A program made the position numbers and the translations under genes. The notes beneath the pieces are model-generated. The model searched no databases. It saw nothing but the letters and a program-made list of their open reading frames with translations, and had not been told where the DNA came from. Of a DNA stretch of 25,341 bases, positions 5,279 through 25,341 are shown one piece after another; within the stretch, counting starts at the first letter, position 1, and each line of letters opens with the position of its first letter. The stretch lies in the IMG/VR virus record IMGVR_UViG_3300047276_000490, positions 1-25,341 of that record; one strand, 5' to 3'. This DNA is from a virus.

Positions 5279-5354
5279 TGGCGCCCCCACGGAGAATCGA
5301 ACTCCGGTCTCCAAGATGAAAGCCTGGTGTCCTAGCCAGCTAGACGATGGGGGC
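5279..5354 (-). tRNA. tRNA-Glu (anticodon UUC), copy 1
   Basis: A 76-nt cloverleaf. The acceptor stem is GCCCCCA/TGGGGGC with discriminator G and an encoded CCA end (5279-5281). The anticodon arm is CCAGG-CTTTCAT-CTTGG, giving anticodon TTC. The T arm is CGGAG-TTCGATT-CTCCG. It decodes GAA/GAG. Copy 2 shares the anticodon but has a different acceptor stem, so it is not a recent exact duplicate. Confidence 0.93.
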
Positions 5355-5505: not shown

Positions 5506-5580
5506 TGGTGCCCTTACGGGGAATCGAACCCCGGTTATGCGGATGAAAACCGCATGTCCTGACCGCTAGACGATAAGGGC
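5506..5580 (-). tRNA. tRNA-Glu (anticodon UUC), copy 2
   Basis: A 75-nt cloverleaf. The acceptor stem is GCCCTTA/TAAGGGC with discriminator A and an encoded CCA (5506-5508). The anticodon arm is TGCGG-TTTTCAT-CCGCA, giving anticodon TTC. The T arm is CGGGG-TTCGATT-CCCCG. It is transcribed leftward with copy 1, 151 bp downstream. Confidence 0.94.
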
Positions 5581-6639: not shown

Positions 6640-6856
6640 GTCGGTTGTACGGCTCCGGGCCGTCGACGATCGTGAAGCCGTCGTTGCCGCTGATCAGCTT
6701 CGACCCGTCGGCGAAGGTCTTGGTGTTGGTCGCGCGTTCGACCTGGGCTTGCAGCTTCGCGACCTGGCTGGCCAGGGACGCGACCTGGGCTTCCAGGTGG
6801 TTGATGCGGCCCAGGACGTGGGCCATGTGGTCGTTCAGTCGTTCGATATCGTTCAT
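6632..6856 (-). CDS. Small coiled-coil protein
   Basis: A 74-residue protein. Residues 3-45 (IERLNDHMAHVLGRINHLEA then QVASLASQVAKLQAQVER) form a clear heptad coiled coil. The short tail (ADGSKLISGNDGFTIVDGPE) looks like a small beta element. The start overlaps the primase-helicase stop (ATGA). Together with the next gene it makes two consecutive coiled-coil proteins that may interact; function unknown. Confidence 0.6.
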   Translation of the reverse strand: MNDIERLNDHMAHVLGRINHLEAQVASLASQVAKLQAQVERATNTKTFADGSKLISGNDGFTIVDGPEPYNRHG

Positions 6857-9114: not shown

Positions 9115-9494
9115 GGCATCAGCCGGTTGTTCCGGTTCGGCAGCTGGAGTCCGTTGTCCTTGATGAAGCGGGAAACGTTCCACTCGCCGACGCCTAGCGC
9201 AACCGCGATCTGCGCGTGGGTCTTGCCCTGGGCGCGCATCTCCTGGATCTTCGCCTCCCAGCCGGTCTTGTCGAACTTGTAGCCCCGGCGGTTGCGGCGG
9301 TTCTTCCACTGGAAGCCGGTGATACGGGTCCAGTTGCGCAAGCAGGACGGCGACCAGCCCAGCCACTCGGCAGCCTGGTTGATGTTCATCCCCTTGCGGT
9401 TGGCGCGGTGCATCAGGGGAAGCATGGCCTTGATCCGTTCCATGCGCCCGTAGGTCATATCGACGCTGCGGAACTTGGAGCTCTTGCGGTTCAT
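9111..9494 (-). CDS. DNA-binding protein with two helix-turn-helix motifs
   Basis: A 127-residue basic protein from ATG 9494 (MNRKSSKFRS). Two HTH segments are visible: residues 38-55 (INQAAEWLGWSPSCLRNW) and 92-111 (THAQIAVALGVGEWNVSRFI), joined by a basic linker (KNRRNRRGYK). The stop/start overlaps on both sides are ATGA, so it is translationally coupled with the nuclease block above and the primase-helicase below. A role as initiator-like or regulatory DNA-binding protein for replication is inferred from position. Confidence 0.65.
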   Translation of the reverse strand: MNRKSSKFRSVDMTYGRMERIKAMLPLMHRANRKGMNINQAAEWLGWSPSCLRNWTRITGFQWKNRRNRRGYKFDKTGWEAKIQEMRAQGKTHAQIAVALGVGEWNVSRFIKDNGLQLPNRNNRLMP

Positions 9495-9793
9495 AGGAGG
9501 CGGATGAAGATCGGGGTTCGCTTGCCGACGTAGGCGCCGGTGACGTTGAAGCTCATATGCTCCAGGGCGTCTTCCTCGGTCATACCGTCGCGGGTGCGGA
9601 AGATCTCGATGCACTTGTCGTAGCTGTAGGCCACGACGGGTTCGGATACGCCTTCGGTGATGCCGATGATCGCGGCGTCCAGGCCGTCAGCCACGAGCAT
9701 CTCGCCGTCGGCGAGTTCGTCTACCAAGGCGCGCATGACGGCGCCCTCCTTTTCGAGCTGCTTGAGCTCCCGCTTGCTTACTTTTTTAGCCAT
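9491..9793 (-). CDS. Conserved phage protein of unknown function
   Basis: A 100-residue protein from ATG 9793 (MAKKVSKRELKQL). The core reads DGLDAAIIGITEG...AYSYDKCIEIFRTRDGMTEE...FNVTGAYVGKRTPIF. I recognise this as a protein common in phage replication regions but do not know a proven function. The start is preceded by the C/A-rich leader CAACCCCCAACC...GAAACACCAAAATG and lies inside the end of the nuclease gene (16-bp overlap). The frame extends to 9841, but the leader argues for 9793. Confidence 0.7.
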   Translation of the reverse strand: MAKKVSKRELKQLEKEGAVMRALVDELADGEMLVADGLDAAIIGITEGVSEPVVAYSYDKCIEIFRTRDGMTEEDALEHMSFNVTGAYVGKRTPIFIRLL

Positions 9794-10548
9794 TTTGGTG
9801 TTTCGGTTGGGGGTTGAATGAAGGTGGGTTTGGACCAGCACGTGGCGCGGAAGTCACAGAACTTGCAGCGGAAGTCGGTGGACTCGTTGCTGATCCTGTT
9901 GAGCTCCTCAGGGTTGCTTGAGCTGACGACGCGCACGGCGCGGTCGCTGGCCTCCTGGGCTGCGCGGGCGTCGAAGGCGATGATCTCGGCGTGGACCTCG
10001 CCGGTATTGCGGTTCTGGATCGTGAACACGCAGACCTGGAGCTCCATATAGGCCATGTAGACCTGTGCCTGGGCGTAGTACAGGGGCTTGGCGACCTTGA
10101 TGCCCTTGGTCACGGCTTCCTTCCAGCCCTTCTCGTTCAGCGCCTTGTTCTCCCACAGGGCCGGCCATGCCACGGCGACACCGGCTGGTCCAGCCAGGAT
10201 CACCCCGTCGATATGGCCCTTGAGCTTGCCCCCGGCGGCGGCGAAACCGAACTGCTTGCCGTCCTCCCCGGAAGTCAGGAGCTCAAAGCCGGCGATCTTC
10301 AGGTATTCGGCCATGCGGCCTTCGCCGTCGTGGCCCATATCGAAGATGCGCAAGATCGACGCCTTGAAATCCTTATCGGGTGGTTCGTTGTGGTAGATGT
10401 AGCCGAGCTTGCGGTCGCAGGGATCGCCCCACACGGAAGCGCCCAGGTATTGCCGGCGTTCTTGGCCGCGGCGCTTGAGGGTCATGGCTGAATCCAACGA
10501 TGCGACGACGGCGGCCGCAGCAGGATCGGGGTTAAAGTCCTGGAACAT
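9778..10548 (-). CDS. Cas4/RecB-like PD-(D/E)XK nuclease with Fe-S cysteines
   Basis: A 256-residue protein. Nuclease motifs in order: H73 in MGHDGEGRMAEYL, D114 in GHIDGVI, WENKAL (Glu133, Lys135), and YYAQAQVYM (the QxxxY-like motif). Cys44 (CDRKLGY) together with CKFCDFRATCW (Cys228, Cys231, Cys237) gives the four-cysteine arrangement that binds a 4Fe-4S cluster in Cas4 and AddB-type nucleases. It probably acts as a DNA exonuclease in recombination or replication. Its ATG overlaps the helicase stop (TAATG), so the pair may work together in end processing. Confidence 0.82.
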   Translation of the reverse strand: MFQDFNPDPAAAAVVASLDSAMTLKRRGQERRQYLGASVWGDPCDRKLGYIYHNEPPDKDFKASILRIFDMGHDGEGRMAEYLKIAGFELLTSGEDGKQFGFAAAGGKLKGHIDGVILAGPAGVAVAWPALWENKALNEKGWKEAVTKGIKVAKPLYYAQAQVYMAYMELQVCVFTIQNRNTGEVHAEIIAFDARAAQEASDRAVRVVSSSNPEELNRISNESTDFRCKFCDFRATCWSKPTFIQPPTETPKWLKK

Positions 10549-12188
10549 TATTTTAGGATGATGTGCTGGATGCGTGGTTCGTTAAGTTTCCAGGTGATCA
10601 AGCAGCATGCGAGGTACTTGGTCATGCCGAAGACGATGCCCTGGGCAAGGCCAAGCATTGACAGTTGCTTGTCGGAAGCTGGCTGCGTCAGCCAGCGCTT
10701 GGTCTTCTTGGCTGCGTCCTTGTTGCCGTGCTCCCGGAGGAAGTCGTCGGCGGAAGCCAAGGCCTGGAGCTTGTCCGGGGATCGGTTGAGGAAGTTTACC
10801 CGAGTCCCACGGAGTCCCCCGACCGCATGCCACATCCCGTCGTGGTCGACCAGGCATGCCCAGGCGTCGATCCCGTGCGCCATCGTGACGGCGCCGTCGA
10901 ACATGTCCTGCCACCGGAAGGGAGAAAGCTCCATGAGGTGGATCTCGGTCATGACGAACTCCTCCAGGGGTTTCCGTGGCGTTCCTTGGCTGTCTTCTTC
11001 GGTATGGTCATGGCCGCACACCGGGCAGATCTTGACGCCTGGCGGAAGCTCTATGCCGCAGCCGTCGCAGTGGCGGGTGCGGTCGGATGGTTCGCGGTCC
11101 CGTCCAACGGTCGGATCGCACTCGATCGATCCGTGGGTCAGCAGGGAATACCCGAAGTCCAGGACGATGCAGTCGGATTTGACGACGCCTGGGTAGCGCG
11201 CCGGGTCGACCTTGCGCAGTCCGCGCCCGATCATCTGGATCATCGTGCCCTTGTAGGAGCACGGGCGCAGCAGGATGACGCAGCTGACGTCCTGGCAGTC
11301 CCAGCCTTCGGTCAGCACGGCGACGTTGACGAGCACCTGGATCTCTCCCTTGTCGAAGCTCTTGAGCACCTTGCGACGGACGCCGTCGGGCATGTCGCCG
11401 TGCACGATATCGCAGGATACGCCGGCGACCTTGAAGCCTTCCATGACGTGCTCGGCGTGGGATACGGTGGAGCAGAAGGCAACGGTCTTGCGGGTTCCGG
11501 CCCGGTCTTTCCATTCCTGGATCACGCGCTCGTTGACCGCCTGTTTGTCCATGATCTGGGACACGGCGTCCATGTCGAAGTCGTTGGCGGTCATCTTGAC
11601 CTTGGCCAGGTCGCCGCGGATATCGCAGTCGACGACGAAGAACCGCGGCTTAACGAGGAAGCCTGAGGCGATCAGCTCGCCCAAGGTGATGACGTCTGAG
11701 ATGTTGTTGAACGCGGCGAGCAGCGCCTTGCCGTCGCCTCGCTGCGGCGTCGCGGTGACGCCGAACACCTTGAGGCGCGGGTTGATTGAGCGCGCCTGGG
11801 CGATGATGTTCTGGTAGCTGGCTGCAGCCACATGGTGGGCTTCGTCGATGACGAGCAGATCCAGCGGGGGGATGGACTCCAGGTTGTCCTTACGGCACAA
11901 GGTTTGGACCATCCCAAAGGTGACACCTGGAGACCAGCGCTTGCGGTCCGCGGTGTATAGGTCGGTTTCAACGGTAGGGGCGACGGCCCGGAACGTGGCC
12001 CGGTTCTGGGCTACGAGCTCGTCGCGGTGTTGCAGGATCAGCGCGCGCCCGCCGATCTGCTTGGCTACCGCCGAGAGCATCACTGTCTTGCCGGCGCCGG
12101 TGGGCGCGATGCCTAGGGTGTTGCCCTTGGTGTTGAGGGCGTCGATGCAGCGGTCGACGAAGTCGCGCTGGCGTGGGCGTAGAAGCAT
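10548..12188 (-). CDS. DEAD/DEAH-box superfamily 2 helicase
   Basis: A 546-residue protein with all core SF2 motifs: Walker A APTGAGKT (28-35), DEAH (115-118), TATPQR (145-150), LTEGWD (292-297) and QMIGRGLRK (318-326). A CDGC...CPVC zinc ribbon (Cys374, 377, 388, 391) follows the helicase core, and the C-terminal 140 residues are a separate accessory domain. It resembles phage SSL2/RecG-side helicases that unwind or remodel branched DNA. It is the first gene of the operon running to 6064. The leader ends ATACCGACATG, with no Shine-Dalgarno sequence. Confidence 0.9.
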   Translation of the reverse strand: MLLRPRQRDFVDRCIDALNTKGNTLGIAPTGAGKTVMLSAVAKQIGGRALILQHRDELVAQNRATFRAVAPTVETDLYTADRKRWSPGVTFGMVQTLCRKDNLESIPPLDLLVIDEAHHVAAASYQNIIAQARSINPRLKVFGVTATPQRGDGKALLAAFNNISDVITLGELIASGFLVKPRFFVVDCDIRGDLAKVKMTANDFDMDAVSQIMDKQAVNERVIQEWKDRAGTRKTVAFCSTVSHAEHVMEGFKVAGVSCDIVHGDMPDGVRRKVLKSFDKGEIQVLVNVAVLTEGWDCQDVSCVILLRPCSYKGTMIQMIGRGLRKVDPARYPGVVKSDCIVLDFGYSLLTHGSIECDPTVGRDREPSDRTRHCDGCGIELPPGVKICPVCGHDHTEEDSQGTPRKPLEEFVMTEIHLMELSPFRWQDMFDGAVTMAHGIDAWACLVDHDGMWHAVGGLRGTRVNFLNRSPDKLQALASADDFLREHGNKDAAKKTKRWLTQPASDKQLSMLGLAQGIVFGMTKYLACCLITWKLNEPRIQHIILK

Positions 12189-12312
12189 GTCGGTATGCGT
12201 GGATGGGGGGGCTCCGGGATAGGCTGTCCAACCATAAGCTTCACCGGTAAAGGCATGGTAGCCGGGATGGAACCGACTCCGTCCTTACTTTCCTGCCACG
12301 CCCCCTTCTCCT

Positions 12313-12344
12313 AAAAATGGACCGGCTAGGTTGCCCTAGCCGGT
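12313..12344 (-). terminator. Intrinsic terminator after the DUF669-like gene
   Basis: On the minus strand ACCGGCTAG-GGCAAC-CTAGCCGGT is followed by CCATTTTT. It starts 6 bp after the stop at 12350 and separates the recombination operon from the replication operon. Confidence 0.8.
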
Positions 12345-12349
12345 TGTGA

Positions 12350-13060
12350 TCAGTACGGGTTGTTGCCGGAAGTGTCCAGGCCAAGGTCGCCGTTCTGGCG
12401 CTTGTTGATCCACTTCGGCCCGTTGTTGATCGTGGGCTGCGTCGGGGCGATGGGCGCCACCGGGCGGATGACGGGCTGGATCGGCGCCTGGGCGGGAGCG
12501 CCGAAGGAAGGCTGGCCGAACGCGGTCTTGCGGGCAACCGAGCCGTCGCCGGCAAGCTGCGTCCACAGCTTGCTGGTGCCGGAGGACGGGGCGGGAGACA
12601 GGAACTCGGCGACCTCGTTCTTGTCGTCGTAGCCGTCCTTGCCCTTGGCAACCTTGATCTTGATCGCGACAGTCAGGCCTTCCAAGGCGGCGATCACGGC
12701 GTTGAAGCTGGCGCCATTGAACTTGTCGTAGCTCCGGGCGTCCAGGGGATTGAACACGCCGGCGGCCTCAAACATGCGGCACATCGCGGCGAGGCCCATC
12801 AGGGCGCCGTCGTTTTTGCCTTCGTTGCGGAGGGCGTGGTTCTGGTTGCGCTCGTCCTGAGGGTTCATGACGATCGTCCAGACCTTGCGGCCGGTGTACT
12901 GGCCTTCGGAAATCGTGAGCTCCAGGTTGGCGTAGGTGCCGCCCGTGCGCTTGGACTCCTTGATGCCGGTCGGCTTGACCACGGCGAAGGCCAGCGTGCC
13001 GTGGGGGATGAGGGCGCTGGGGCCCTGGGAGCTGGAGGCTCCGGATTGCGAGGTGAACAT
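12350..13060 (-). CDS. DUF669-like single-strand DNA-binding protein
   Basis: A 236-residue protein. Residues 15-150 (HGTLAFAVVKPTGIKESKRT with GGTYANLELTI and YTGRKVWTIVMNP) follow the pattern of phage DUF669/SSB-like proteins: strand, K..K.GG.Y..LE, then GR.VW. The C-terminal 80 residues are Pro/Gln/Ala-rich and disordered-looking, as in SSB tails. It sits next to the Sak4-like ATPase, a pairing known for phage annealing systems. The leader is AACAAAACCAAACC...AAAAAACATCATG, without a Shine-Dalgarno sequence. The SSB role is inferred. Confidence 0.7.
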   Translation of the reverse strand: MFTSQSGASSSQGPSALIPHGTLAFAVVKPTGIKESKRTGGTYANLELTISEGQYTGRKVWTIVMNPQDERNQNHALRNEGKNDGALMGLAAMCRMFEAAGVFNPLDARSYDKFNGASFNAVIAALEGLTVAIKIKVAKGKDGYDDKNEVAEFLSPAPSSGTSKLWTQLAGDGSVARKTAFGQPSFGAPAQAPIQPVIRPVAPIAPTQPTINNGPKWINKRQNGDLGLDTSGNNPY

Positions 13061-13088
13061 GATGTTTTTTGGTTTGGTTTTGTTTTTT

Positions 13089-13946
13089 TTAGGATGCCTT
13101 GTTCGGCAGAGTTGTGACGATGTTGGTGTCGATGCGCTGACCCTCGCGGATCTTGGTGATCAGGAGCCCAAGGTCGGGAGCTTCGACCATGTCCAGGCGA
13201 CCGGAACGGTCCTTGGCGGGGTATCCCCAGGGGTTCATCTGGGTGCACACGAGGCCGCGGTACGGGAGGCCTTCCGGCGTGGTGAACGCCTGGAGCGTGA
13301 TCACTTGGTCGAAGATACCCGGAAGTTCGCGACCGGTTTTGGAGCCCTCGATCTGGGGCGTCCAGGTGACGCGGTTAAGGTCGTCCTTCTCGGAGTCCAG
13401 GATGCCGACCACGATGATCGACTTGCTGGAGTGCTGGAGGTGGGTCAGCCAGCGCATCATCTCGCGACCGAGGAGGCCGTAGGCGCTGCGGTTGTCGGGC
13501 TTGCCGGTCTTCTCGGACACGGCTTCCGGCTGGATCTGCGCCCACTTCAGGCACTCGCGGGACGCCACGGTGATGGAGTCCACGAAGATCGTGCTGTACT
13601 TGGACAGGTCGAGGTCGGCGAAGACCTGGGCGATCTTGGCATACATGGCTGCCGAGTACGGGCCGTCGCGGTCGGCGGGATCGGGTCCGCCGATGTACAG
13701 GGCGAGCGCGCGGGCGATCTCCCAAGGGTGGGCGCCCAGTTCGGTGGCAGCCGTACGGACGTCGAGGACGTCACCAGCCCAGTCCTGGATAGCCAGGGTG
13801 CCGGCTTCCAAGTCCACGAACAACGTGGTCTTGGGGTCGAGCGTGCGCGCGAGCGTGGTCTTGCCGACTCCGGACGGGCCGAAGATGGCGATGTTGATCT
13901 TTGGGACGGCGCGAAGGCGCTCGTCCGCTTTGACGATGCGGATCAT
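13089..13946 (-). CDS. Sak4-like (AAA_24) RecA-fold recombinase
   Basis: A 285-residue protein with Walker A GPSGVGKT (23-30), a TTLFVDLEAG segment after it, and Walker B-like STIFVDSIT, followed by KSIIVVGILD. This is the arrangement of phage AAA_24/Sak4 ATPases, remote RecA relatives that anneal single strands with help from a cognate SSB. The DUF669-like gene immediately downstream fits that partner role. The start ATG 13946 follows CCCCCAACCAAACCGACAC, the common C/A-rich leader. Confidence 0.85.
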   Translation of the reverse strand: MIRIVKADERLRAVPKINIAIFGPSGVGKTTLARTLDPKTTLFVDLEAGTLAIQDWAGDVLDVRTAATELGAHPWEIARALALYIGGPDPADRDGPYSAAMYAKIAQVFADLDLSKYSTIFVDSITVASRECLKWAQIQPEAVSEKTGKPDNRSAYGLLGREMMRWLTHLQHSSKSIIVVGILDSEKDDLNRVTWTPQIEGSKTGRELPGIFDQVITLQAFTTPEGLPYRGLVCTQMNPWGYPAKDRSGRLDMVEAPDLGLLITKIREGQRIDTNIVTTLPNKAS

Positions 13947-13971
13947 GTGTCGGTTTGGTTGGGGGTGGAAA

Positions 13972-14331
13972 TCAGTTATTACGGGAAGTCTTCACCCGTT
14001 TCCCTTCCGCGTAAGCCTTGTCCATCAGAAGCTCGGACATGTGGGCAGCGCTGCGAGCAGAGACGATTGAATACATCAGCGACATGTTGCCGCGAAGCTT
14101 GGGCCAAACCCGGATCAAGATCGGGCCTTCCTTGTAGTAGACCTTCCCGTCAAGCTGGATGAAGCGCCAGTTGTCGCCATCAGCCGGCATGTTGGCCGCA
14201 AGCTTGAGGGGGGAGACGTCGATGACGGCGCCGTCGTTGTCGGAGTTTGCGGGCATGTCGTTCATCTCAACATCCGGGCGTTCGGCCTTGAGTTGATTCA
14301 TGAACTGCAGGATTGGTGTGTCGGTTTCCAT
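13972..14331 (-). CDS. Phage hypothetical protein
   Basis: A 119-residue soluble protein of unknown function. The N-terminus is acidic and Asn/Asp-rich. The middle WRFIQLDGKVYYKEGPILIR is likely beta, and the C-terminus is a basic helix (MSELLMDKAYAEGKRVKTSR). It lies in the recombination operon between the Sak4-like ATPase and another unknown gene, 20 bp downstream of the latter. The leader is CCCAACCCACAAAACACATG, without a Shine-Dalgarno sequence. Confidence 0.65.
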   Translation of the reverse strand: METDTPILQFMNQLKAERPDVEMNDMPANSDNDGAVIDVSPLKLAANMPADGDNWRFIQLDGKVYYKEGPILIRVWPKLRGNMSLMYSIVSARSAAHMSELLMDKAYAEGKRVKTSRNN

Positions 14332-14351
14332 GTGTTTTGTGGGTTGGGAAA

Positions 14352-14774
14352 TTAGGCCAGCGTGATCTTGGGCTCGGTGTGCTCGACGGTCCGGGCCTCG
14401 TTCAACGCAGCGATCAGGGCGTCGTCGGTCAGGGCCTTGTAGGTGGTCTCCTTGACGGAGAACTTGATGCTGAAGATCTTCTCGACCTTGTCCCAGGTCA
14501 TGTCGCCGGCGATGGCTTGGAGGCGCTTGGAGTCCCAGGTGATCTTGGGCTTGAGCTCGTAGTTGAGCTTCACCCCGTCGATCTCAGCGGTGATGGAGCC
14601 GGTGGTCTTGCCCGCGTCAGCCAGGGCGGAGGCAAGGCGGTCCTTGGTGCGCTCGGTGATGGCGGCGTGGAACGTGGCCTTGGCTGCTTCCAGCTGGGCG
14701 ATGGCCAGGTCGATCTTGCGGATGTTGTCGGTCAGCTCCTGGAGGGGGCGGCCGGCTAGGTTGTTGTCAGTCAT
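14352..14774 (-). CDS. Conserved protein of phage recombination regions
   Basis: A 140-residue protein. The N-terminal half (IRKIDLAIAQLEAAKATFHA...TKDRLASAL) is an alpha-helical coiled coil. The C-terminal half has the pattern KITWDSKRLQAIAG...KFSVKETTYKAL...ALNEARTVEHTEPKI. I have seen similar proteins beside phage recombination genes but know no proven activity. The leader CCACCCAACCAAACAACCG then ACATG is one of the clearest copies of the shared leader. It overlaps the upstream HTH gene by 8 bp. Confidence 0.7.
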   Translation of the reverse strand: MTDNNLAGRPLQELTDNIRKIDLAIAQLEAAKATFHAAITERTKDRLASALADAGKTTGSITAEIDGVKLNYELKPKITWDSKRLQAIAGDMTWDKVEKIFSIKFSVKETTYKALTDDALIAALNEARTVEHTEPKITLA

Positions 14775-15030
14775 GTCGGTTGTTTGGTTGGGTGGAATTG
14801 GGACCGGGTAGGATCGTGCGGACGTATTCGGAGATGACCAGGGGTTGGCCCTCGCGCTTGGCGAGCTCCATCAGGATCAGCAACCGGGACGACGGGATCG
14901 AGCTGCGCTCGGTCCACTTTTCGATCGTCTTGACGGAGATGCTATGGCGCATCGTCGTATTGAGGCGGCGCCACAATTCTGTGCGTCCGCCGAACCGCTT
15001 GATGATAGCTTTTACGTCGAGCTGGTACAT
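14767..15030 (-). CDS. Cro/XRE-like helix-turn-helix regulator
   Basis: An 87-residue protein from ATG 15030 (MYQLDVKAIIKRFGG). Residues 5-55 (AIIKRFGGRTELWRRL...ISVKTIEKWTERSSIPSSRL) read as a Cro-like HTH in which SVKTIEKW is the recognition helix. A TTG at 15045 would add five residues. It is the first gene of the early/recombination operon and lies next to an operator-like dyad (15072-15084), so autoregulation is likely. No partner repressor or integrase was found in the window. Confidence 0.7.
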   Translation of the reverse strand: MYQLDVKAIIKRFGGRTELWRRLNTTMRHSISVKTIEKWTERSSIPSSRLLILMELAKREGQPLVISEYVRTILPGPNSTQPNNRHD

Positions 15031-15071
15031 CGGTATGAAACGCAACGTGCCCCTGATCCGACGCCGCGCAA

Positions 15072-15084
15072 CTACAATTAGTAG
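15072..15084. promoter_or_regulatory. Operator-like dyad upstream of the HTH gene
   Basis: CTACAATTAGTAG is a near-perfect 13-bp dyad 42 bp upstream of the HTH gene start. CTGACA lies just upstream on the minus strand and could be a -35-like box, but no well-spaced -10 box is evident. Confidence 0.35.
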
Positions 15085-15089
15085 GACTG

Positions 15090-15413
15090 TCAGCTTCTCT
15101 TTGCCACCCGGTAGATGATAGCACCTAGCACTGCCGTGGATCCAAACGCCATGGCGATCGCGATATCCCGTGTCGCCTTCATCGCAAGGGTCGCCTGGCT
15201 CAGCTGGTGCTCCGTGTTCTTGTCGTCGAACTTCAATCCTTCGGCTGTTATCAGTCCAGCCATGGCATGGCTATCTTGGAACGCGTTGAGCGTGTATTGC
15301 AGCAGCCAGGCGGTGGCACCGGCGCACGCGATCGTCACGATGGCCGAGATCCCGACGGCGTAGACGTCGTTAGCGTTTACGCTTTCCGGCTTTGGCTTGG
15401 GCTTTCGCTTCAT
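15090..15413 (-). CDS. Two-TM membrane protein, holin/lysis-cassette candidate
   Basis: A 107-residue protein. A short Lys/Pro-rich N-terminus (MKRKPKPKPE) precedes a membrane segment at about 17-42 (VYAVGISAIVTIACAGATAW), then a polar stretch, then a second segment (IAIAMAFGSTAVLGAIIYRV) and a basic tail. The N-in/C-in topology and size suit a class II holin or antiholin. It overlaps the upstream holin-like gene by 44 bp in another frame, the kind of dense overlap common in lysis cassettes. Confidence 0.6.
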   Translation of the reverse strand: MKRKPKPKPESVNANDVYAVGISAIVTIACAGATAWLLQYTLNAFQDSHAMAGLITAEGLKFDDKNTEHQLSQATLAMKATRDIAIAMAFGSTAVLGAIIYRVAKRS

Positions 15414-15726
15414 CGAGCTTGGAGTTTAGCTTGGTTTTGACCATGGCCAGCGTCCAGTCGGCAACCTCAGGGGCTGCGTAAGACAGGGCGCCAACCGCCG
15501 CGAACTGAAGGTGCACCGAGCTTATGTATTCCTTCACGACCATCGAGCTGAAGAAACCTACGACGCACGCTACGAAAATCCGTCGGGCCACATATCCCAA
15601 CGATTGCTTCTCCGTGCTCATCACGAGACGCGCGGTCATCGCGCCCGCCCCCAGGGCTGAGGCCGTGGCCCCATCCCGGATCACCTGTTGGACTTCCTCA
15701 GGGCTGTTGGGGGGAGGGGGGCTCAT
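15370..15726 (-). CDS. Holin-like protein
   Basis: A 118-residue protein with two hydrophobic helices: VARRIFVACVVGFFSSMVV and LQFAAVGALSYAAPEVADW. The sequence between and after them, with a conserved Gly/Ala-Pro turn and a Lys-rich C-terminus (AQAKAGKRKR), resembles the LydA/phage_holin_3-type family. It would form inner-membrane lesions at lysis. The start lies inside the end of the lipoprotein gene (29-bp overlap). Family call is from pattern recognition. Confidence 0.65.
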   Translation of the reverse strand: MSPPPPNSPEEVQQVIRDGATASALGAGAMTARLVMSTEKQSLGYVARRIFVACVVGFFSSMVVKEYISSVHLQFAAVGALSYAAPEVADWTLAMVKTKLNSKLDEAKAQAKAGKRKR

Positions 15727-16405
15727 TGACGGTGTCGCGCGCCTTGTCGTAGGCGACCCAGATCAGGAGCCCTGCCAGCACGGCGCCGGCGGATCCGCAG
15801 ATCCAGGTAAACCATGGGCTGTCGATGACGTAAGGGACGGCGCCGGCGAAAGCACCAGCCAGGAGCAGGGGAGCGCCCTTCTTGATCCCGGCGAAAGCCA
15901 TGGCGACGCCGCCGAAGACCACCAGCGCGGCGCCGGTGATCGTCCAGATCTTGCGGTCGGATTCCTTCTCGATGCGGATCATGTCCTCCTTCAGCTTGCG
16001 GTTCTCAGCCTTTAGGTTGGCGATCTCCAGGGCGTTGCGCTGCGCGAGCACTTCGGCCTTCTCCCAGTCGGACGTCAGCTTGGACAGGAACTTGCGCGCG
16101 TATTCGGTCTGGTCGACGTAGGCCTTCTGATCCTGGGCGGCTGCCCGTGCTAGCGCAAAAGCCTTGTCGCCTTCGCTTGCCGGCGGGAGGTAGGCCTGGG
16201 CTAGCTTGGCTTCGGCCTTAACCACCGCGGGCTTCTCGGCGTTAGTCTCGATCGCCACGAGCCCGGCGGCTACGCGCCCGTCGATCTTGTCCTGGCTTTT
16301 GCCGATCTTGTCCAGGGCGTCAGCCCCTGCGGTAGGCACGGGATCAGGAACCGGCGTGGTAGCGCAGCCAGCCAGGATCAGGGTGATCGCAAGGATGGTT
16401 TTCAC
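15698..16405 (-). CDS. Lipoprotein with C-terminal membrane segments (u-spanin-like candidate)
   Basis: A 235-residue protein with a GTG start overlapping the upstream stop (GTGA). The N-terminus is a lipoprotein signal (TILAITLILAGC, Cys14). A long helical or coiled-coil middle (about 100-150: WEKAEVLAQRNALEIANLKA...KEDMIRIEKES) leads to two or three C-terminal membrane helices (IWTITGAALVVFGGVAMAF; APLLLAGAFAGAVPYVI; WICGSAGAVLAGLLIWVAY). A lipidated outer-membrane end and an inner-membrane end joined by a coiled coil is the design of unimolecular spanins, which normally have a single TM. Its place among holin-like genes supports a role in lysis. The extra TMs are unusual. Confidence 0.6.
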   Translation of the reverse strand: MKTILAITLILAGCATTPVPDPVPTAGADALDKIGKSQDKIDGRVAAGLVAIETNAEKPAVVKAEAKLAQAYLPPASEGDKAFALARAAAQDQKAYVDQTEYARKFLSKLTSDWEKAEVLAQRNALEIANLKAENRKLKEDMIRIEKESDRKIWTITGAALVVFGGVAMAFAGIKKGAPLLLAGAFAGAVPYVIDSPWFTWICGSAGAVLAGLLIWVAYDKARDTVNEPPSPQQP

Positions 16406-16550: not shown

Positions 16551-19500
16551 TTATTTATCCTTTGTCGGACGAGGTTGGCGATACTTGTATGGGTTTTGAT
16601 CCTCCCTCTTTTTGTCGGGCTTTTCCTCCTTGGTGGCGTCCAAGGCTGCGTTGGACATGGTCGTATCGTTTGTAGCCATCACGGCTGCCGTGCCCAAAGC
16701 CGGGTTGATGGCAGAAGCACCGGCGACGATGACGCCTTTGACAGGCGGGATGGCCGCCCGGACGGCGGACTTGTTGGCTGAAGCCATGGCTGCTGGGCGC
16801 TTGGCCTCGTCGCCGATCTGGGCGACCGCGTAGTTCTTGGCAGCGCGGGCGGTGCCGATGGCTTCCTGGCCGACCACGCCGCCGGGAGGCTGATCGCGCA
16901 TCACGAACTTCATGGACTGTTCGATCTTCGGTCCGAAGACGCCGGCGTAGGAAGCGGCGTCCAGGAACTTCGCCCACCAGGGATCGTCCTCGTGCTTGAT
17001 CGAAGCCTCCGTAGGGTAGAGCTCGCGGCGCAGCTTGAACATGGCGCCGAACGCCATGATGGCGAACGGCAGCATCATGGCAGGGGCAGCCAGGCGTAGG
17101 CGGTCGATCGCGTTGTAGTCCCCGCTCATGACCGATTGCTTGGCGTTGTCGTAGATACGGCTGTTGGCTTCTGCGGCGTAGGAATAGGTGAAGCTCTGGA
17201 GCTGCAGCCACATCTTGCCCATGAGGTTGTCCTGGAACACCGGGCGATGGGCTCGGTTTGCGCGCACCGCGGTTTGGTTCGTGAAGCGGACTTGGGCTTC
17301 CTCGTACAGCTTGGACATTGGGCTGCCGTCGGTCATGACCGCGAAGCGCTGGTCCGCCGGCGTGGCGTTCAGCTTCTTCATCCAGGCCGCGAAGGCCTGG
17401 TGCTCGGATTCCGGTACGCCCAGCTCGGTCAGGTCGCGTGCGGCGGATCGGCTGGCGTCCATGCCGAACGTGTTCATCCAATGCGTGCCGTCGATCATCT
17501 TGCAGATATCGCCGATGTAGCTGTGACCGATCGCATGGGAAGCCTGTTGCTTGGCTGTCTCGGTGGCGTCCATCAGGTTGGCCTTGTAGATACGGTTGGT
17601 CAGCCAGCGCATCCTGGGGTTCTGGTTGTCCATGCCCAGTTCCATGCTGTGCGTCGTCATCCAGGCGTCCTCAAGGTTGTTATGGATCGTGCCGATGTGC
17701 TCGCCGTACTGCTGCCAGAAACTTTCGTTGCTGAGCATCTTCACGATCGGCTTGTCCTTGATGAACTCGTTGACCGAACGCGCCCAGGTTTCGACGTAGG
17801 CGCGGATCGCGGTGAGCGGGCTGCCCGTTCTCACGCCCATGGTGATGGGCTCAAACAGGTTGCTCATGAAGCTCTTGCCCAGGGACGTGGCAGCCGTGTA
17901 AAGGGTCACGGAATCCATGAAGGCTTGGCCCGATTTCCCCAAACCGGCGGTCCCCAGGCCGGCGGCCTGGCACACGAGCTGGTGCATCTCGTCGATGACC
18001 TCGTGCGGAACGCCTTCGGCCTCCATGCCAACGGCGTATTTTTCCCAACCAGATCCGTCGGCGCCGAACTTGCGGGCGACCTCTGCGCTCTTGACGGCGC
18101 CTCCGACATACCGGGTGATCACCAGGAACGGATCGTTGGACTGCCAGGCGCGCATGATGTTCTGGGCTTGACGGCCAAACACGCGTTCCTTGCTGGAGTT
18201 TTCCCGCATGGACGGGGACGTCTTGCTGATCAGGCTGCCAAAGTCGGACGCAGCCATGCCTCGGACGTGGGTATTGTACAAAGCCAAGGCTGCGGCAGCT
18301 GCCGCTGAATCAAGCTCAGGGCCGCTCATGGTCTTGGACAGCTCAATCCTATAGGCGCGTTCAGCATCGGCCAGGAACGCAGCTCGATTTTTCGCGATCA
18401 GGTCAGAGTTATAGACGACCGGGAAATAATCCTGGATCTGACCAAGGTCTTCGCCCGCCTGGGTGCGGTAGTCATGCAGATCGGCCAGGAACTGCTTCAG
18501 GTCGGCAGCCACCTTGCCTTCGATCCCGGTAGCAAAATTGCGGCGTCCGGTGATCTGATCGGTCAGGCTTTCATAGAACCTTTCACGGCTAGCCGTATCC
18601 ATGGAAGCCAGGTGATCGCGCAACGGCTCCATGATATTGCGGAACCGGTTCATGTATTTGGCCCTGGCGGTCATGATCGAGGCCGGGATGGACCTGGGCG
18701 CCGCGCTACCCTGGCTGCCGGGACGGTTGTGGATCAGGTCGGCAACGGCTTGGATCGTGGCGCCTGGGTATCGGCTGGCGTTCTGGTGCGCCTTCACGCT
18801 GATCCCGCTGAAATACCGCATCGTGATAACGTCCCATGCCCTACGCGCCGCCGAGATCTCCGGGTTCACGGGCGCTGCGCCTGGAGCCGCAGGGGTGTTG
18901 GAATTTGGAGGCGTGATGGGAGGGGGAACCGTAGGTGCAGGGTTCTGATTTGTTCCGCCTACCGCAGGAGGGTTTTGGAAACGCTTTGAAAGCTCCACAT
19001 TAACCTTCGTGCCAGGAGCTTGCTTCTGGTTTGTGTCTTTTTCCGTCTCAAATTTGAGGATGCTTTCCTCGTATGCCTTGCGGTCTACCGTCCCGTTTCT
19101 GATCGCGTTGAACGAATCCTCCTGGGCTACGGGATCGTTATGCGCTTTCATGCCAACGCCTGGCGTCATGGCAAACGCGGTCGTCAGGGCTGCCTTGTTC
19201 CCATGGATCTTAAACGCCATCTGGAAACCGTTGGTCGTGTCGTAAATGGTGATCTTGGTCTCGTTCCCGTTGGCGTCCGTCAGGTAGACCCTGGAATCGG
19301 CGTTTTTGATGAAATAATCGATGGCTTCGCCGTACGCCTTGATGCCCTCCTGGTTGTTGTTCGTGATCTCGTCGATCCGATCGTCGATGCTTTGCCCAGG
19401 ATTCCTGGTCGCAAGCGCGTACCGGTGGACGACCTGGTGCCAATGCCTCATGACGCCGTGAAGGAAACCATAACCCATGGTCCCTAACCTGTTGCCGTAA

Positions 19501-22500
19501 GCCTGAGATCCAGCCTGGATCACGACCTCGCGGTTTCCAAGAAGGGGTGACGTTTCGCTTACCATCGGATTCCCGTTGTGCGTAAATTCAGAACCATTGA
19601 CGATGGCTCCGTTTTTGCCTTGAGGCATGATCTGACGAGCGCCGGCAAACAAGGCTTCTGCCTTGTCCGGGTCGACGACGTTTGAGTGCGTCACGTATTC
19701 GCCCTCGGATCCGCCCAGGATGCTGGCGATCGCGTCGACCACGTCCTGAGGCATGTCCCAGTTTCTTCCGTTCATGTTCCAGCTGTATGTGCCGTCGATC
19801 TTTTCTAGCGCGGCCTCGACCAGCTTGTTTTTAGCATCCTGTGTGGTGGCGGCTTCGTAGGCATTCTTGAAATTAGCTACGGCGAGCGGCGATCCAGGGG
19901 GTGGGTTTTGGATGTGGCGTTTTTCTTTATCAAGCTCGGCTTTGTCTAGCTGCTCGTTGGTCAGATTCACGCCACCAGGGCCTTCGCGATTCACGATCGT
20001 GAACCTAGCCCTGGTGGACATGTTCCGGCCTTCGTTGGCCTGGCGGTTCTTGGCCTGGACGCCAAGCGCGCCGATGTGCATGGCCTGGATATCCTGGGGC
20101 GAGAACGTTCCGAGCTTCACGCGCCCGTTGGTCATCTTGTAGATCACGCGGTTGACGGCTCCACAGAACTTTTCCCATAACGGGCGGGCAAGATCGGCTT
20201 CGTCGGCGGACGCCAAGGCGTTCTCGATGTACGCGCCGACCTCCTCCATGAGGACGTTTGCGAACGCCTTGCGCTCGTGCTCGTCGATCTCAAAGCCCGT
20301 GTTCGCCGGCTCGAAGATCTGATCCAGCAGGAAGTCAATGTCCTCCGGGGAGATCGCGGTTTCGCCTTGTTCAAACGACGCGAAGTCCATGCCGATGAAG
20401 CGTCGGAAACGCTTGTCCAGCATCATGACGGCTTCGGAATACCGGCTGTCGTTGAGCATGGCCCAAACAGCCATATGCACGGCGCGTCCGGCGACCGGGT
20501 TGCCGTCGTGGTAGTTCTTGATCGTGTCGTTGAAGAAGTCGCTGACGATCTGGTCGCTGTCGCCAAAGCCCAGGTGCTGCCCGATCTCGTGCAGGATCAC
20601 GGCCTTCATCTCTGCAGGGGTTCCGACCTTGGGGGCGATGATGTATGCCTTGCCGTAATGCGCCCAGCCGCCGGCGTTGCTCATCTCAGCTGCTTCCATA
20701 GGCGATAGCGTAGGATCGGCTTCGCGGACCGTGTCGGCAAACGTGAGGATACCGGAGTCCACCAGGCCCGCGATGACGTCGGCGCCGAAGGCTTCCTCGG
20801 CAACCCTGCGGGCTTCGACCTTGTCCATCTGCCCAGGCTGCAAGCCGGCGCTCAGGCGGCGGCGGGGCTCGCCGGGCTCAAACACCTCTGGATTCTTACG
20901 AGAACCAGTAAAATCATAGCCCTTTACCTTATCCACGTCGGCGCCGATGTAGGCGGCGAGCTCCTGCTTGACCTGTTCGCGGAACGTCGGGTCTTCAATC
21001 CTGGCTGCCAGGGACACGCGAATAACGTCACCGGTAGCATCGATCCGACCATGAGCTGCGCCGTTCAGTAGGCTAGGGTCTTCATGGATCAATTCAGCCC
21101 AATCGAGATGCGTAGGGTGGTTGCTTTGTCGCAGCATTGTTATGTGGTTAACTTTTGCAGCCTCGGCAATTTGAGCTCTGAGGTCTTCCCAGTTAATTAC
21201 CTGTAGCTTGCCTTGCTTGTCGTAAGCCCAAAGCCAGGTCTTTTCTCGGTTTTTCTGGCCTTTTGCATGGCCGACGTCGGTCCACCATTGGATCCGCTTA
21301 GCGCCGGGCAGCTCGTTCTTGGCGCGCAGCTCAGCCTGGCGCTTAAGCCAAGCCTGGCGGCCTCCGCCAGGGATCGCCTGGTTCTCGCCGTCGTCGTAGC
21401 CGGCGGGGGGCTCAAGCAGCTGCGAGCTGGACTCCATCTTGGCCTTCCATTTTGCGAGGTTTTCTTTGACGTCTACGCCGATCCTAATGTCCCTTAAAAT
21501 CTTCAATTCTTCGGGACTGTATTGGTTCGGGATCTTCGCGTACATGTCCTTGCGCTCAATATACCATCCTTCGGCGTCTGGATCCCACTGTCGGAACGGA
21601 TCGCGACCATGGGTTTCATCAATGTCGCCGCCTTCCCATTCAACGTTTTCGGATCCGAACAAGGATTCGGCTGCTTTGATGGGACGGTTTTCGGGATCAA
21701 CCACAACGGCGGTCAAGCCTTCGGCTTCGTTGATCCGTTTTGCTCGCTCGACCACTTCGGCCATGATGACCTTGGACAAACCAACGCCCCTGAACTTTTC
21801 CCTTACCTTGATCCAGACGAGCTCCATGTTCCGTTCGTCTTGATCAAAGTTGAATTCAAACTGGGCAATAGATTTGCCGTTCAGCTTGATCGAACCCTTG
21901 TATCCCTCAGATGAAAGATCCAAGGAAAGCTCAGCCTTTTTTAGGCTGCGTGGCATCTTAGTGGCTTCTCGCGTCAAGAACCCGCGATCTGCCAGCCCCT
22001 GGTCTGTATGGTTGGCTACATCAAACTGGTACCCCCTGGGAAGGTGTTTGTTGCTGATGACCGGTTCGGACCCAGGTTCAGCTACCGCCTCATCGCTTTT
22101 TTTTTTTGGACCAGCCAGCCCTTGTTCGACGACGTCCTTGAGGGAACTCGGAGTCTCGGCGGCGGTTTCAGCGGCGTTTTCGACGCCCCCTTCGGCGGCG
22201 TTTTCCTGGGCGTTTTCGCCGCGGTTGTAGCCGGATCCGGGTTCCTGGAAATCGTTGCCGTAGGATCTAACGTCGTTGGAACGGCTGACGCCTTTATTGT
22301 CGAATACGTCCAACAGGGTGATCTTGGTGGAGTTGGCGACGTAGCTCATGTTCTCGATAGCCTTGGTTGCCAAGGCCTTATCCATGCCGGCGGTATACAA
22401 CATCATGTTGACCGCGTTTGAGCGGTCGATACCGGCCACATATTTGCTGAACCCGGTCTGCTTGGTTGGGTTGTCTCCTGGCAAGATGGCCTTCATCGCC

Positions 22501-25341
22501 GTCATCACATCGCCGTCCAGGGGGATGGCAGCTACGGGCCTGTTGGCGTTATCCAGCAAAACGATACCGGGCTGGTCGTCGCCGAAGATGCGGCGAATTT
22601 CCGGACCAGCCACGAATTGATCGCTTAACTGCACCTTGCTTTTAGACACCGCGTACGAGAACATGCGCTCCGTGAGCGGGATCGTGAACTTGCGCGGAAG
22701 CGGCTTGATCTTCTGATCTGAGTAGATTCTGCCGCCGTTGTCCTGCATGGCGTAGCGATCACCGGCGATCGCCATCATGCCCATGTAGCGCAAGTTAGCC
22801 GCCTCCAGAAGTCGTTGAAGGTTGCTGCCGGAGCTAATGTCAGCGGGAGACAACGACCCTTTCTGGGAAGGGTGATTATGGACGACCCAAACATTGGCAG
22901 CACCAGGGGTGCTTGCGGCGGTGCCGACCAGGATGCCAGGATTGAAGCCACAAGCGGTCGGGCCGTTCAGCTGGTGAGCGGCGATCTGCAAGGGCTTACC
23001 GGCCTTGTCGGTGATCAGGAGAACGAGCTGTTCCTGTGGGCGCTTGCGCATGCCAGCCATGATATGGGCAGCGTCGTCCATGGTCTTGACGGTTTGGACG
23101 CCCGACGCGACCTGACCGGTCGTGGAGTGCTCGACGAACTGATCCAGCATGGCGTCGGACAAACCGAACTGCTTCATCTGTTCGCCGGATAGGCGGCCGA
23201 AAACACCAGGGGTGGCGTCCAGGCGGGGGAACGCGGAGACATTGACGCCAGGCGCCTTGGGGGCACGAGGCTTGCGGGTCTTCTTGATGATCGGCGCGGC
23301 GGGCTGGGCGTTTTCCAGGCCGCTGTCCTGACCTTCGGGGGCGGCTTCGCCGCCTTCCTGAACGCCGTATTGGGAGCCTTCTTCTTTGACGTTTTTGGCG
23401 CTGGTGATGACCAGGTCGGCATCGTAGATGCCGTGTTCACGACCGATGCGAGCTTCGCCGGTTCGCTTCAGGTCATCCATCAATTCCTGCCACTGTTCCA
23501 AGCTGATATCAGCATCGGCAAATTGGGAGTACCCTTTGATGGTCACGCCATCAGGGCCAATGATGGCGGTCGCCTGTCGGTCCTTTTCCGGGTTTCCGTT
23601 TCGTTCCGAATTCTCGCCTTTGATAGCGGAGTCATAGAACACAAGGCTCATGGTCTTGGCCTTCGGCTTACCGCCTTCCTCGACGCCCATGCCCTGGCTG
23701 ACCACGTCACCCAGGGACTTCGGCGCTTCTTGCTCGATCGGGGCCTGTTCGCCTTCGCCTTCGGCGCCGTAGTTGGCGCCTGGCTCGTTGAAACCGCCGC
23801 GATCGCCGGTCTTGAACCTGATACCCTGTGGGGCAGCAGATTCAAAGCTACCATACATTCCCGAGCTGATGACTTGATTGACGAAGTTCTTGCTGTTGTT
23901 GATGACGTCGTCGATCGTCACCCTGGAGTTGCTGACGCGAAGGACAGCACGCTGAAGGTTGCGAACGGCTTGCGCGCGCGTATCGTTTCCGGACGTTCCA
24001 ATGTCGTTAGGGCCGACGCTGATAATTAGGCGTTCTGCATTGGATCGCTCAATAGCGGCCATAAGCATGGCGAGCGGGTTGTTCCATGCGCCAGCCTTGG
24101 TGTCCTTTGAAAACTCGGTGCGCTTGTAGACCCGCTTATCCTGTTCCGGGTTGGCTCGTTCATCTTCGGATCCGATGTAGTCGCGGCCCTGGCCTTGCTC
24201 CTGGTTGATAATGGAATCGCCGTTGGAGGCGGCGTAGCGCATCTCGTCGATGCTCATCTGGATTACGCCGACTAATCGACCAGCCTGATCAAGCAAGGCT
24301 ACGCCTGGGAGGTTGCGCAAAAGCGGGGGGATCTGTTCGATGGCGTCCTTCGGCTGCGTGATGCGCGGGAACAGGGCGCCCTTGCGGACCTCAAACATGC
24401 GCTCAACGACCTGGATTTTGGCCATAGCCATGGGATGCGTCTCGCTTGTGCCAGGTCTATCATCAAACGGAATGACATTTTGGACGGCTCTGGAATCAAC
24501 ATACGCAGGATCCGGATGATTCATGGCAGCCGGACTGTGGTTCACAAGTTCACCGCCAGGGTGGAAGATGTACTTCGGAACCATGGTGCCTTGATGAGCG
24601 TCGCCATCGCTGACCACTAAAGAACCGCCAAAACGAAGGCCGACGGACTCGATGCTCTTGGACAGCATCCTGGCTGCGTTAGCGTCAGCCGGCGAAAAGC
24701 GCGCCGTCGTGGACGGATGGTTGTGAACCATGTAGACCGTACGCGCACCGCGCGTGCTTGCGGCAACGCCGGCGATCAGGTGGGGGAAGAAGTTCGTGGA
24801 ACTGGTTCCGCCCAGGGTATGGCGCAGGATCTGGATCGGACGACCCTGGCCGTCCAGGATCACAGCCATGAAGTTCTCCTGGGGCTGCTTGCGGAGGTAT
24901 TCGTAGGCCAGGGCGGCCACGTCGTCGGCGTTGTCCATCGGGCGATCCGGGACGTTCATCTCACCGATCACAGATCGGTCGACAAACTGGCTGAGGATGG
25001 CGCGCGTCAGGCCGACGCGGGACAAGAGGTTGGGCGAAACGCCCTTGCCGCCGGCGTTGTCGCCGATCGGGCCGCGGGAGAACTTACGATTATCCCTGCC
25101 GGTGATCGTAAGGTTGCCGTCTTTGATCGCGGATTCAACCGGACGCGCGTTCTGCAGCGGCGAGCCGGCCATGGCCGGCTCCATTTCCGGTTCGACAGGA
25201 GCTTCGGCGGGCTGCTCTTGGGGCTGCTCCTGGGGCTGCTCGATCGGAGCGGGTTCGGCGGGAGCTTCGTAGGGAGCGGGCTGATAACGACGACCCGGAT
25301 CCTGGGCTTGCTGCGCGGGAGCGGGGGCCGGAGCGGGAGCC
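16551..25341 (-). CDS. Giant polyvalent protein: two JAMM/RadC-like domains, GNAT-like, zincin, C-terminal virion region (partial)
   Basis: The frame stays open to the right edge, so the start lies outside the window; at least 2,929 residues are visible. Numbering from Met at 25184: upstream is a Pro/Gln/Glu linker. JAMM 1 has E103 and H154-N-H156-x10-D167. JAMM 2 has H769, H771 and D782 with the same spacing. A GNAT-like segment (VREKFRGVGLSKVIMAEV) lies near 1125. The zincin motif HEIGQH is at 1532-1537. A Pro-rich linker lies near 2080-2110. A long helical C-terminal region follows, with a membrane-like segment (APAMMLPFAIMAFGAMF) near 2700 and a basic end. This is the layout of phage polyvalent proteins that are packaged and injected to modify host defences or proteins. 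Enzyme activities are inferred from motifs. Confidence 0.8.
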   Translation of the reverse strand, partial: APAPAPAPAQQAQDPGRRYQPAPYEAPAEPAPIEQPQEQPQEQPAEAPVEPEMEPAMAGSPLQNARPVESAIKDGNLTITGRDNRKFSRGPIGDNAGGKGVSPNLLSRVGLTRAILSQFVDRSVIGEMNVPDRPMDNADDVAALAYEYLRKQPQENFMAVILDGQGRPIQILRHTLGGTSSTNFFPHLIAGVAASTRGARTVYMVHNHPSTTARFSPADANAARMLSKSIESVGLRFGGSLVVSDGDAHQGTMVPKYIFHPGGELVNHSPAAMNHPDPAYVDSRAVQNVIPFDDRPGTSETHPMAMAKIQVVERMFEVRKGALFPRITQPKDAIEQIPPLLRNLPGVALLDQAGRLVGVIQMSIDEMRYAASNGDSIINQEQGQGRDYIGSEDERANPEQDKRVYKRTEFSKDTKAGAWNNPLAMLMAAIERSNAERLIISVGPNDIGTSGNDTRAQAVRNLQRAVLRVSNSRVTIDDVINNSKNFVNQVISSGMYGSFESAAPQGIRFKTGDRGGFNEPGANYGAEGEGEQAPIEQEAPKSLGDVVSQGMGVEEGGKPKAKTMSLVFYDSAIKGENSERNGNPEKDRQATAIIGPDGVTIKGYSQFADADISLEQWQELMDDLKRTGEARIGREHGIYDADLVITSAKNVKEEGSQYGVQEGGEAAPEGQDSGLENAQPAAPIIKKTRKPRAPKAPGVNVSAFPRLDATPGVFGRLSGEQMKQFGLSDAMLDQFVEHSTTGQVASGVQTVKTMDDAAHIMAGMRKRPQEQLVLLITDKAGKPLQIAAHQLNGPTACGFNPGILVGTAASTPGAANVWVVHNHPSQKGSLSPADISSGSNLQRLLEAANLRYMGMMAIAGDRYAMQDNGGRIYSDQKIKPLPRKFTIPLTERMFSYAVSKSKVQLSDQFVAGPEIRRIFGDDQPGIVLLDNANRPVAAIPLDGDVMTAMKAILPGDNPTKQTGFSKYVAGIDRSNAVNMMLYTAGMDKALATKAIENMSYVANSTKITLLDVFDNKGVSRSNDVRSYGNDFQEPGSGYNRGENAQENAAEGGVENAAETAAETPSSLKDVVEQGLAGPKKKSDEAVAEPGSEPVISNKHLPRGYQFDVANHTDQGLADRGFLTREATKMPRSLKKAELSLDLSSEGYKGSIKLNGKSIAQFEFNFDQDERNMELVWIKVREKFRGVGLSKVIMAEVVERAKRINEAEGLTAVVVDPENRPIKAAESLFGSENVEWEGGDIDETHGRDPFRQWDPDAEGWYIERKDMYAKIPNQYSPEELKILRDIRIGVDVKENLAKWKAKMESSSQLLEPPAGYDDGENQAIPGGGRQAWLKRQAELRAKNELPGAKRIQWWTDVGHAKGQKNREKTWLWAYDKQGKLQVINWEDLRAQIAEAAKVNHITMLRQSNHPTHLDWAELIHEDPSLLNGAAHGRIDATGDVIRVSLAARIEDPTFREQVKQELAAYIGADVDKVKGYDFTGSRKNPEVFEPGEPRRRLSAGLQPGQMDKVEARRVAEEAFGADVIAGLVDSGILTFADTVREADPTLSPMEAAEMSNAGGWAHYGKAYIIAPKVGTPAEMKAVILHEIGQHLGFGDSDQIVSDFFNDTIKNYHDGNPVAGRAVHMAVWAMLNDSRYSEAVMMLDKRFRRFIGMDFASFEQGETAISPEDIDFLLDQIFEPANTGFEIDEHERKAFANVLMEEVGAYIENALASADEADLARPLWEKFCGAVNRVIYKMTNGRVKLGTFSPQDIQAMHIGALGVQAKNRQANEGRNMSTRARFTIVNREGPGGVNLTNEQLDKAELDKEKRHIQNPPPGSPLAVANFKNAYEAATTQDAKNKLVEAALEKIDGTYSWNMNGRNWDMPQDVVDAIASILGGSEGEYVTHSNVVDPDKAEALFAGARQIMPQGKNGAIVNGSEFTHNGNPMVSETSPLLGNREVVIQAGSQAYGNRLGTMGYGFLHGVMRHWHQVVHRYALATRNPGQSIDDRIDEITNNNQEGIKAYGEAIDYFIKNADSRVYLTDANGNETKITIYDTTNGFQMAFKIHGNKAALTTAFAMTPGVGMKAHNDPVAQEDSFNAIRNGTVDRKAYEESILKFETEKDTNQKQAPGTKVNVELSKRFQNPPAVGGTNQNPAPTVPPPITPPNSNTPAAPGAAPVNPEISAARRAWDVITMRYFSGISVKAHQNASRYPGATIQAVADLIHNRPGSQGSAAPRSIPASIMTARAKYMNRFRNIMEPLRDHLASMDTASRERFYESLTDQITGRRNFATGIEGKVAADLKQFLADLHDYRTQAGEDLGQIQDYFPVVYNSDLIAKNRAAFLADAERAYRIELSKTMSGPELDSAAAAAALALYNTHVRGMAASDFGSLISKTSPSMRENSSKERVFGRQAQNIMRAWQSNDPFLVITRYVGGAVKSAEVARKFGADGSGWEKYAVGMEAEGVPHEVIDEMHQLVCQAAGLGTAGLGKSGQAFMDSVTLYTAATSLGKSFMSNLFEPITMGVRTGSPLTAIRAYVETWARSVNEFIKDKPIVKMLSNESFWQQYGEHIGTIHNNLEDAWMTTHSMELGMDNQNPRMRWLTNRIYKANLMDATETAKQQASHAIGHSYIGDICKMIDGTHWMNTFGMDASRSAARDLTELGVPESEHQAFAAWMKKLNATPADQRFAVMTDGSPMSKLYEEAQVRFTNQTAVRANRAHRPVFQDNLMGKMWLQLQSFTYSYAAEANSRIYDNAKQSVMSGDYNAIDRLRLAAPAMMLPFAIMAFGAMFKLRRELYPTEASIKHEDDPWWAKFLDAASYAGVFGPKIEQSMKFVMRDQPPGGVVGQEAIGTARAAKNYAVAQIGDEAKRPAAMASANKSAVRAAIPPVKGVIVAGASAINPALGTAAVMATNDTTMSNAALDATKEEKPDKKREDQNPYKYRQPRPTKDK
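22097..22107 (-). repeat. 11-A homopolymer tract inside the giant gene
   Basis: Eleven T's on + (eleven A's on the coding strand) encode the Lys run of GPKKKSDEA near residue 1026, between the second JAMM module and the GNAT-like region. One extra A gives stop after ...KKR. One lost A gives AMRR then a stop. It is a candidate slippage site. Confidence 0.7.

Follow-up and report, generated by a model that had tools for sequence, protein, structure and literature searches.

A giant polyvalent-type phage protein with two RadC domains and a conserved poly-A tract, a candidate site of programmed transcriptional slippage

The DNA analysed here (the window) is the full 25,341-base virus record IMGVR_UViG_3300047276_000490 of IMG/VR, and one end of it is occupied by a single giant open frame whose features are collected in Table 1. 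Since the frame is open right up to the contig end, the N-terminus of the protein is truncated, such that the encoded product has at least 2929 amino acids and its N-terminus is missing. A sequence-only reading of this DNA had placed the protein start at an ATG at position 25184, but the window is the whole record and the frame runs off its end, so this ATG is internal. Comparison with the relative L004 puts the missing N-terminal part at about 300 residues, and the additional 300 or so N-terminal residues of the relatives are proline-rich. In L015, a complete relative in fused form, the frame spans 3693 codons from stop to stop on a 45.1-kb contig. Besides the truncated N-terminus, the sequence-only reading had overlooked the probable degenerate partners of the RadC domains, the poly-A tract on which the interpretation below turns, and what may be a nuclease-like domain.

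Table 1. Features of the giant gene; positions are those of the window and residues those of the truncated frame.
Feature	Position	Strand	Details
Giant-protein open frame	16551..25340	-	2929 codons; 5'-truncated at contig end
RadC/JAMM domain 1	24600..25019	-	residues 108-247; E155, H206, H208, S216, D219; Pfam RadC and profile matches
Probable degenerate RadC-like domain 1	23901..24419	-	about residues 308-480; lacks HxH; profile-profile RadC match
RadC/JAMM domain 2	22740..23174	-	residues 723-867; HxH at 821/823, D834
Probable degenerate RadC-like domain 2	22281..22703	-	about residues 880-1020; AlphaFold2 pLDDT about 90, RadC-like element order; profile match
A11 tract, proposed slippage site	22097..22107	-	T11 on plus strand; end of RadC block
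GNAT-like domain	21651..22013	-	about residues 1110-1230; RGVGLS at 1184; Pfam E=0.0048, Foldseek probability 1.00
Zincin-like region	20211..20798	-	about residues 1515-1710; HEIGQH 1584-1589, EE 1699-1700; conserved in relatives
Possible BECR-type nuclease domain	19164..19586	-	about residues 1919-2059; conserved G-x-G-x-x-H...H, helices then four strands
C-terminal helical virion-type domain	16554..18923	-	residues 2140-2929; conserved; matches KPP25/phiR18 and Mae-Yong1326-1 proteins
Membrane-like segment	17037-17093	-	residues 2750-2768

In L004 the giant gene comes after genes for terminase, portal, major head protein and an internal virion protein; internal virion genes likewise lie upstream of it in L031, and in both L004 and the window it precedes the replication module. 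The window region downstream of the giant gene (6853-16405) is a replication and recombination module encoding a primase/helicase-like AAA_25 ATPase, a Cas4-type exonuclease, a helicase, a Sak4-like annealing protein and one protein with weak matches to SSB families. Two tRNA-Glu genes, both with anticodon TTC, stand in close tandem at 5279-5354 and 5506-5580. On another contig, IMGVR_UViG_3300032307_000462 (L014, L030), RadC regions of the same gene type are found at both ends, pointing to a genome of about 45 kb that is terminally redundant or circularly permuted. A PADLOC search for known anti-phage defence proteins gave no match, and a search for cellular relatives returned weak matches to the RadC region in two Prevotella-type MAGs and nothing else.

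It is beyond doubt that the giant protein contains two RadC domains. The Pfam RadC model matches two stretches of the chain (E=1.7e-25; 5.4e-18 and 1.3e-12 per domain), the family profile matches PDB 2qlc (E=1.1e-11), and the RadC fold is accompanied by the Glu and HxHx7SxxD metal-site residues of the RadC/JAMM family, with the catalytic E, HxH, S and D invariant in all 22 aligned RadC units from the window and its relatives. The two complete JAMM signatures described in the sequence-only reading are real, and the residues it named are correct once its numbering is shifted by 52 residues. The function it attached to them, the stripping of protein conjugates in the host, is not supported. Iyer et al. 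(PMC5512222) argue that the RadC clade is unlikely to contain the groove that receives a ubiquitin tail and that its probable substrates are nucleic acids or nucleotides; because the window domains belong to this clade, a ubiquitin-type protease was not kept as the leading idea, and nucleic acids or nucleotides are favoured over protein conjugates as the probable targets.

The RadC block is internally duplicated, residues 41-560 matching the second half of the L004 protein with E=3e-31. Behind each RadC domain comes what is probably a degenerate RadC-like domain, lacking HxH; the duplicated unit appears to be this active/inactive pair. The profile of the degenerate domain scored 33.9 against the RadC profile, where the maximum in 100 column shuffles was 18.5 (0/100 as high), and the structure predicted for the second degenerate copy (pLDDT about 90) runs strand, helix, strand, strand, helix, strand, helix, strand, which is the RadC order. 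We call the second domain of each pair a degenerate RadC only with the qualifier "probable" because the HHalign probability of its match to RadC is only 53%. The active/degenerate pair is also found in distant giant proteins at 24-32% identity. Giant phage frames with at least one RadC and with HExxH or HExxxH motifs (L044-L052) range from 1569 to more than 6400 codons and have 24-32% identity to the RadC pair of the window, and L042, a shorter relative at 58%, has one RadC. Active and inactive MPN subunits are paired in eukaryotic complexes, and an active/inactive tandem of the JAMM fold, recalling these paired subunits, suggests a regulated enzyme.

Past the RadC block, the chain carries several further candidate domains. 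For the GNAT-like domain that had been read from the motif RGVGLS, Foldseek gives a fold match (probability 1.00, best E=3.9e-4), but the Pfam match lies under its cut-off (E=0.0048), and the motif ends in Ser where the acetyl-CoA loop motif is Q/R-x-x-G-x-G/A. A related stretch occupies the same place in L014, L015, L029 and L058. The zincin motif of the earlier reading, HEIGQH, is likewise present, as HExxxH and not HExxH, and is followed further downstream by a conserved EE..AY; these motifs are conserved and sited in predicted helices, and L011 has HExxH at the place equivalent to the window HExxxH, but no family model matches the region and the fold search of it was not significant. HExxxH is a form described for polyvalent metallopeptidases, for which Iyer et al. 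proposed a self-cleaving role (PMC5512222). The domain with the conserved G-x-G-x-x-H...H pattern is perhaps a BECR nuclease: PBECR1 was matched with E=0.062 in the relative L016, matches to the HigB fold were weak, and a model of the zincin and nuclease regions gave no significant fold match. Whole-chain searches of Pfam, NCBIfam and PHROG named RadC, then weakly GNAT and a generic JAB, and nothing else. The cargo between the A tract and the zincin is mosaic in L015, L012 and L016, with lengths that differ by hundreds of residues and with two or three copies of a "TDxGH" module (window residues about 1315-1420).

Among near relatives, conservation is highest over the last 790 residues of the protein, at about 51-79% identity. 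They make up the long helical C-terminal region with a membrane segment that the sequence-only reading had correctly picked out, and they match a protein of Pseudomonas phage KPP25/phiR18 that its depositors annotated as virion structural. The two proteins share a homologous C-terminal helical domain, just before which the KPP25/phiR18 protein has a metallopeptidase-like HESMH motif, but identity is 22-23%, the N-terminal cargo is different, and no A tract was found. Protein UUJ74515.1 of Microcystis phage Mae-Yong1326-1 (2441 aa) has a related C-terminus (E about 1e-29), a similar genome position, a proline-rich N-terminal half and HExxH motifs, but it is without RadC and is annotated as a peptidoglycan transglycosylase. 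The 709-aa protein of Rhizobium phage RHph_N65 was set aside, as it gave no match to the C-terminal profile.

Judged by its sequence, the giant protein belongs to the phage polyvalent proteins, an established class that includes the N4 virion RNAP and P1 DdrB and for which packaging and injection have been proposed (Iyer et al. 2017, PMC5512222). Its single long chain carries several enzymatic domains that are unrelated to one another (two RadC, a GNAT-like domain, a zincin-like motif), and its shared C-terminus and the internal virion genes upstream of it in L004 and L031 link it to the virion. The resemblance extends to the very large size of the chain, to RadC, GNAT-like and HExxxH/HExxH metallopeptidase-like domains, and to adjoining virion genes. 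It differs from the proteins of that survey in the tandem of active and probable degenerate RadC and in the conserved poly-A site of slippage type; frameshifting or slippage is nowhere mentioned in PMC5512222. The mixture of domains, which had been judged unusual, is so only in part, as RadC, GNAT and zincin are each known in polyvalent proteins and RadC together with HExxH/HExxxH recurs in other giant phage proteins that we found. Because of the domain mix, the internal-virion gene neighbours in relatives and the virion-structural C-terminus, the protein is probably packaged and injected, as had been proposed, and its likely role is to deliver RadC and its companion enzymes as infection begins.

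A run of 10 or 11 As closes the RadC block in each of the nine contigs that reach across this place. Five have A11 (the window, L014, L015, L029 and L058), and in these the giant gene is one continuous frame with stops in both alternative frames within 3-7 codons of the run start. Four contigs have A10 (L004, L024/L012, L021 and L025). In L004, L024/L012 and L021 the protein is split into two frames that stand in a -1 relation and are joined at the A10 run, while the L025 contig ends one base past it; the RadC frame terminates 3 codons later, the zero frame stopping at KKKT(R/K)R. The next longest A run on the coding strand, in the five sequences checked, is 8, and the tract is absent from L042. 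The locus presents what is expected of a slippage site, namely a conserved homopolymer at least about 9 bases long and a useful outcome in each of two frames. A shorter run, T8 on the plus strand and A8 on the minus strand, lies between two replication genes at 13083-13090 of the window.

A perfect hairpin that ends at the first A of the run is found in A10 genomes only, as GGGGCUC-loop-GAGCCCC in L004/L025 and as GGUCUC-loop-GAGACC in L024/L021. Measured against random synonymous codons, these hairpins have P values of 0.0008-0.0036, whereas the A11 genomes give P values of 0.31-0.92 under the same null and the window is without a clear hairpin. The signal represents two independent lineages, in which the register differs by one base.

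Both layouts have counterparts in bacteria. Bacterial RNA polymerase slips where 9 As or Ts stand in a row; in Thermus thermophilus dnaX, such a run of 9, with both other frames closed by stops, yields two proteins, and in a Roseiflexus IS, a hairpin abutting the run stimulates realignment (PMC5009743). The A11 layout, a single frame with a run of As and stops in both other frames, is like that of dnaX, and the A10 layout adds a perfect hairpin directly 5' of the run as in the Roseiflexus element, so transcriptional slippage is favoured over ribosomal frameshifting. The precedents are not exact: dnaX is a clamp-loader gene in which slippage was shown experimentally, while here it is proposed from sequence, and the Roseiflexus case, also experimentally demonstrated, concerns a T5C5 motif in a transposase gene, with no clear hairpin in the window to compare. 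With moderate confidence, we propose that this polyvalent protein is subject to programmed slippage, probably by RNA polymerase, which would give a short RadC-only product and the giant one. A limited literature search found no earlier report of such slippage in phage internal virion proteins.

The same two products might come from -1 ribosomal frameshifting on A_AAA_AAG in the A10 genomes, as in E. coli dnaX. This motif is in the right phase in L004, L024 and L021, and the SU10 major head protein, made in two forms by ribosomal slippage, is a precedent among phage virion proteins (PMC4281155). We nevertheless consider this route unlikely. RNA structure 3' of the tract was nothing unusual against the synonymous-codon null (z about 0 to 1.2), so that stimulation by a downstream structure was rejected, and the hairpin that is unusual sits 5', abutting the run. 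Moreover, 10-11 As exceed the needs of ribosomal slipping, and A11 genomes would gain a truncated product only.

It is also conceivable, if rather improbable, that there is no recoding at all, with separate genes in the split genomes, an ordinary fusion elsewhere, and an A run that encodes a lysine linker or arose as a mistake of assembly. Assemblies can get the length of a homopolymer wrong, and the lengths given here are taken from them; in addition, an ATG 26 codons past the tract in split genomes, preceded by an SD-like sequence, could start the second part alone, although the SD-like sequence is poorly spaced. Against this, the lysine codons at the tract are all AAA in every lineage, whereas lysine is otherwise encoded by AAG in 74-90% and by AAA in 10-26% of cases, and this uniformity has persisted despite near-saturated synonymous divergence (four-fold sites are 42-58% identical between the main lineages). 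Furthermore, wherever a split genome has sequence past the tract, its two frames stand in the same -1 relation, although the contigs come from separate metagenomes, and the peptide KKK-DEAVAE after the tract is common to split and fused members.

That the tract is a DNA-level contingency (phase-variation) locus, toggled by replication slippage between A10 (split) and A11 (fused), is very doubtful: both lengths do occur in related phages, but a single branch (support 91/93) separates A10 from A11 genomes without mixing, the near-identical L024 and L021 are both A10, the restriction of the hairpin to A10 genomes suggests a stable arrangement, and no length variants of the same tract flank were found in viral contigs.

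Programmed transcriptional slippage can be envisioned as follows. The conserved C-terminal helical domain would probably place the chain in the internal (ejection) machinery of the virion, with variable enzymatic cargo before it, comprising two active and inactive RadC pairs, GNAT, zincin and, perhaps, a nuclease of BECR type. The programmed site would be the A10/A11 tract immediately past the RadC block, where slippage, most likely of RNA polymerase, would leave some of the mRNA with a changed number of As; in A10 genomes the hairpin abutting the tract would assist. Two products would then share the RadC block, one stopping a few codons past the tract and the other running through the zincin and virion domains; the default would be the giant form with A11, as in the window, and the short form with A10. 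Once the protein has entered, its zincin may cleave the chain to release the cargo. More tentatively, the phage lineage may use programmed polymerase slippage to set how much RadC is free relative to the virion-anchored giant protein, with a hairpin only where the giant form needs slippage and with a RadC block that is an active/inactive tandem.

If this is true, these phages would control both the dose and the anchoring of injected cargo with one homopolymer, and they would provide a naturally occurring pair of states, A10 with the hairpin and A11 lacking it, in which to test hairpin-assisted polymerase slippage. It would also mean that gene callers split some such proteins wrongly, and that RadC-only genes adjoining giant virion proteins in phage contigs merit a check for slippage.
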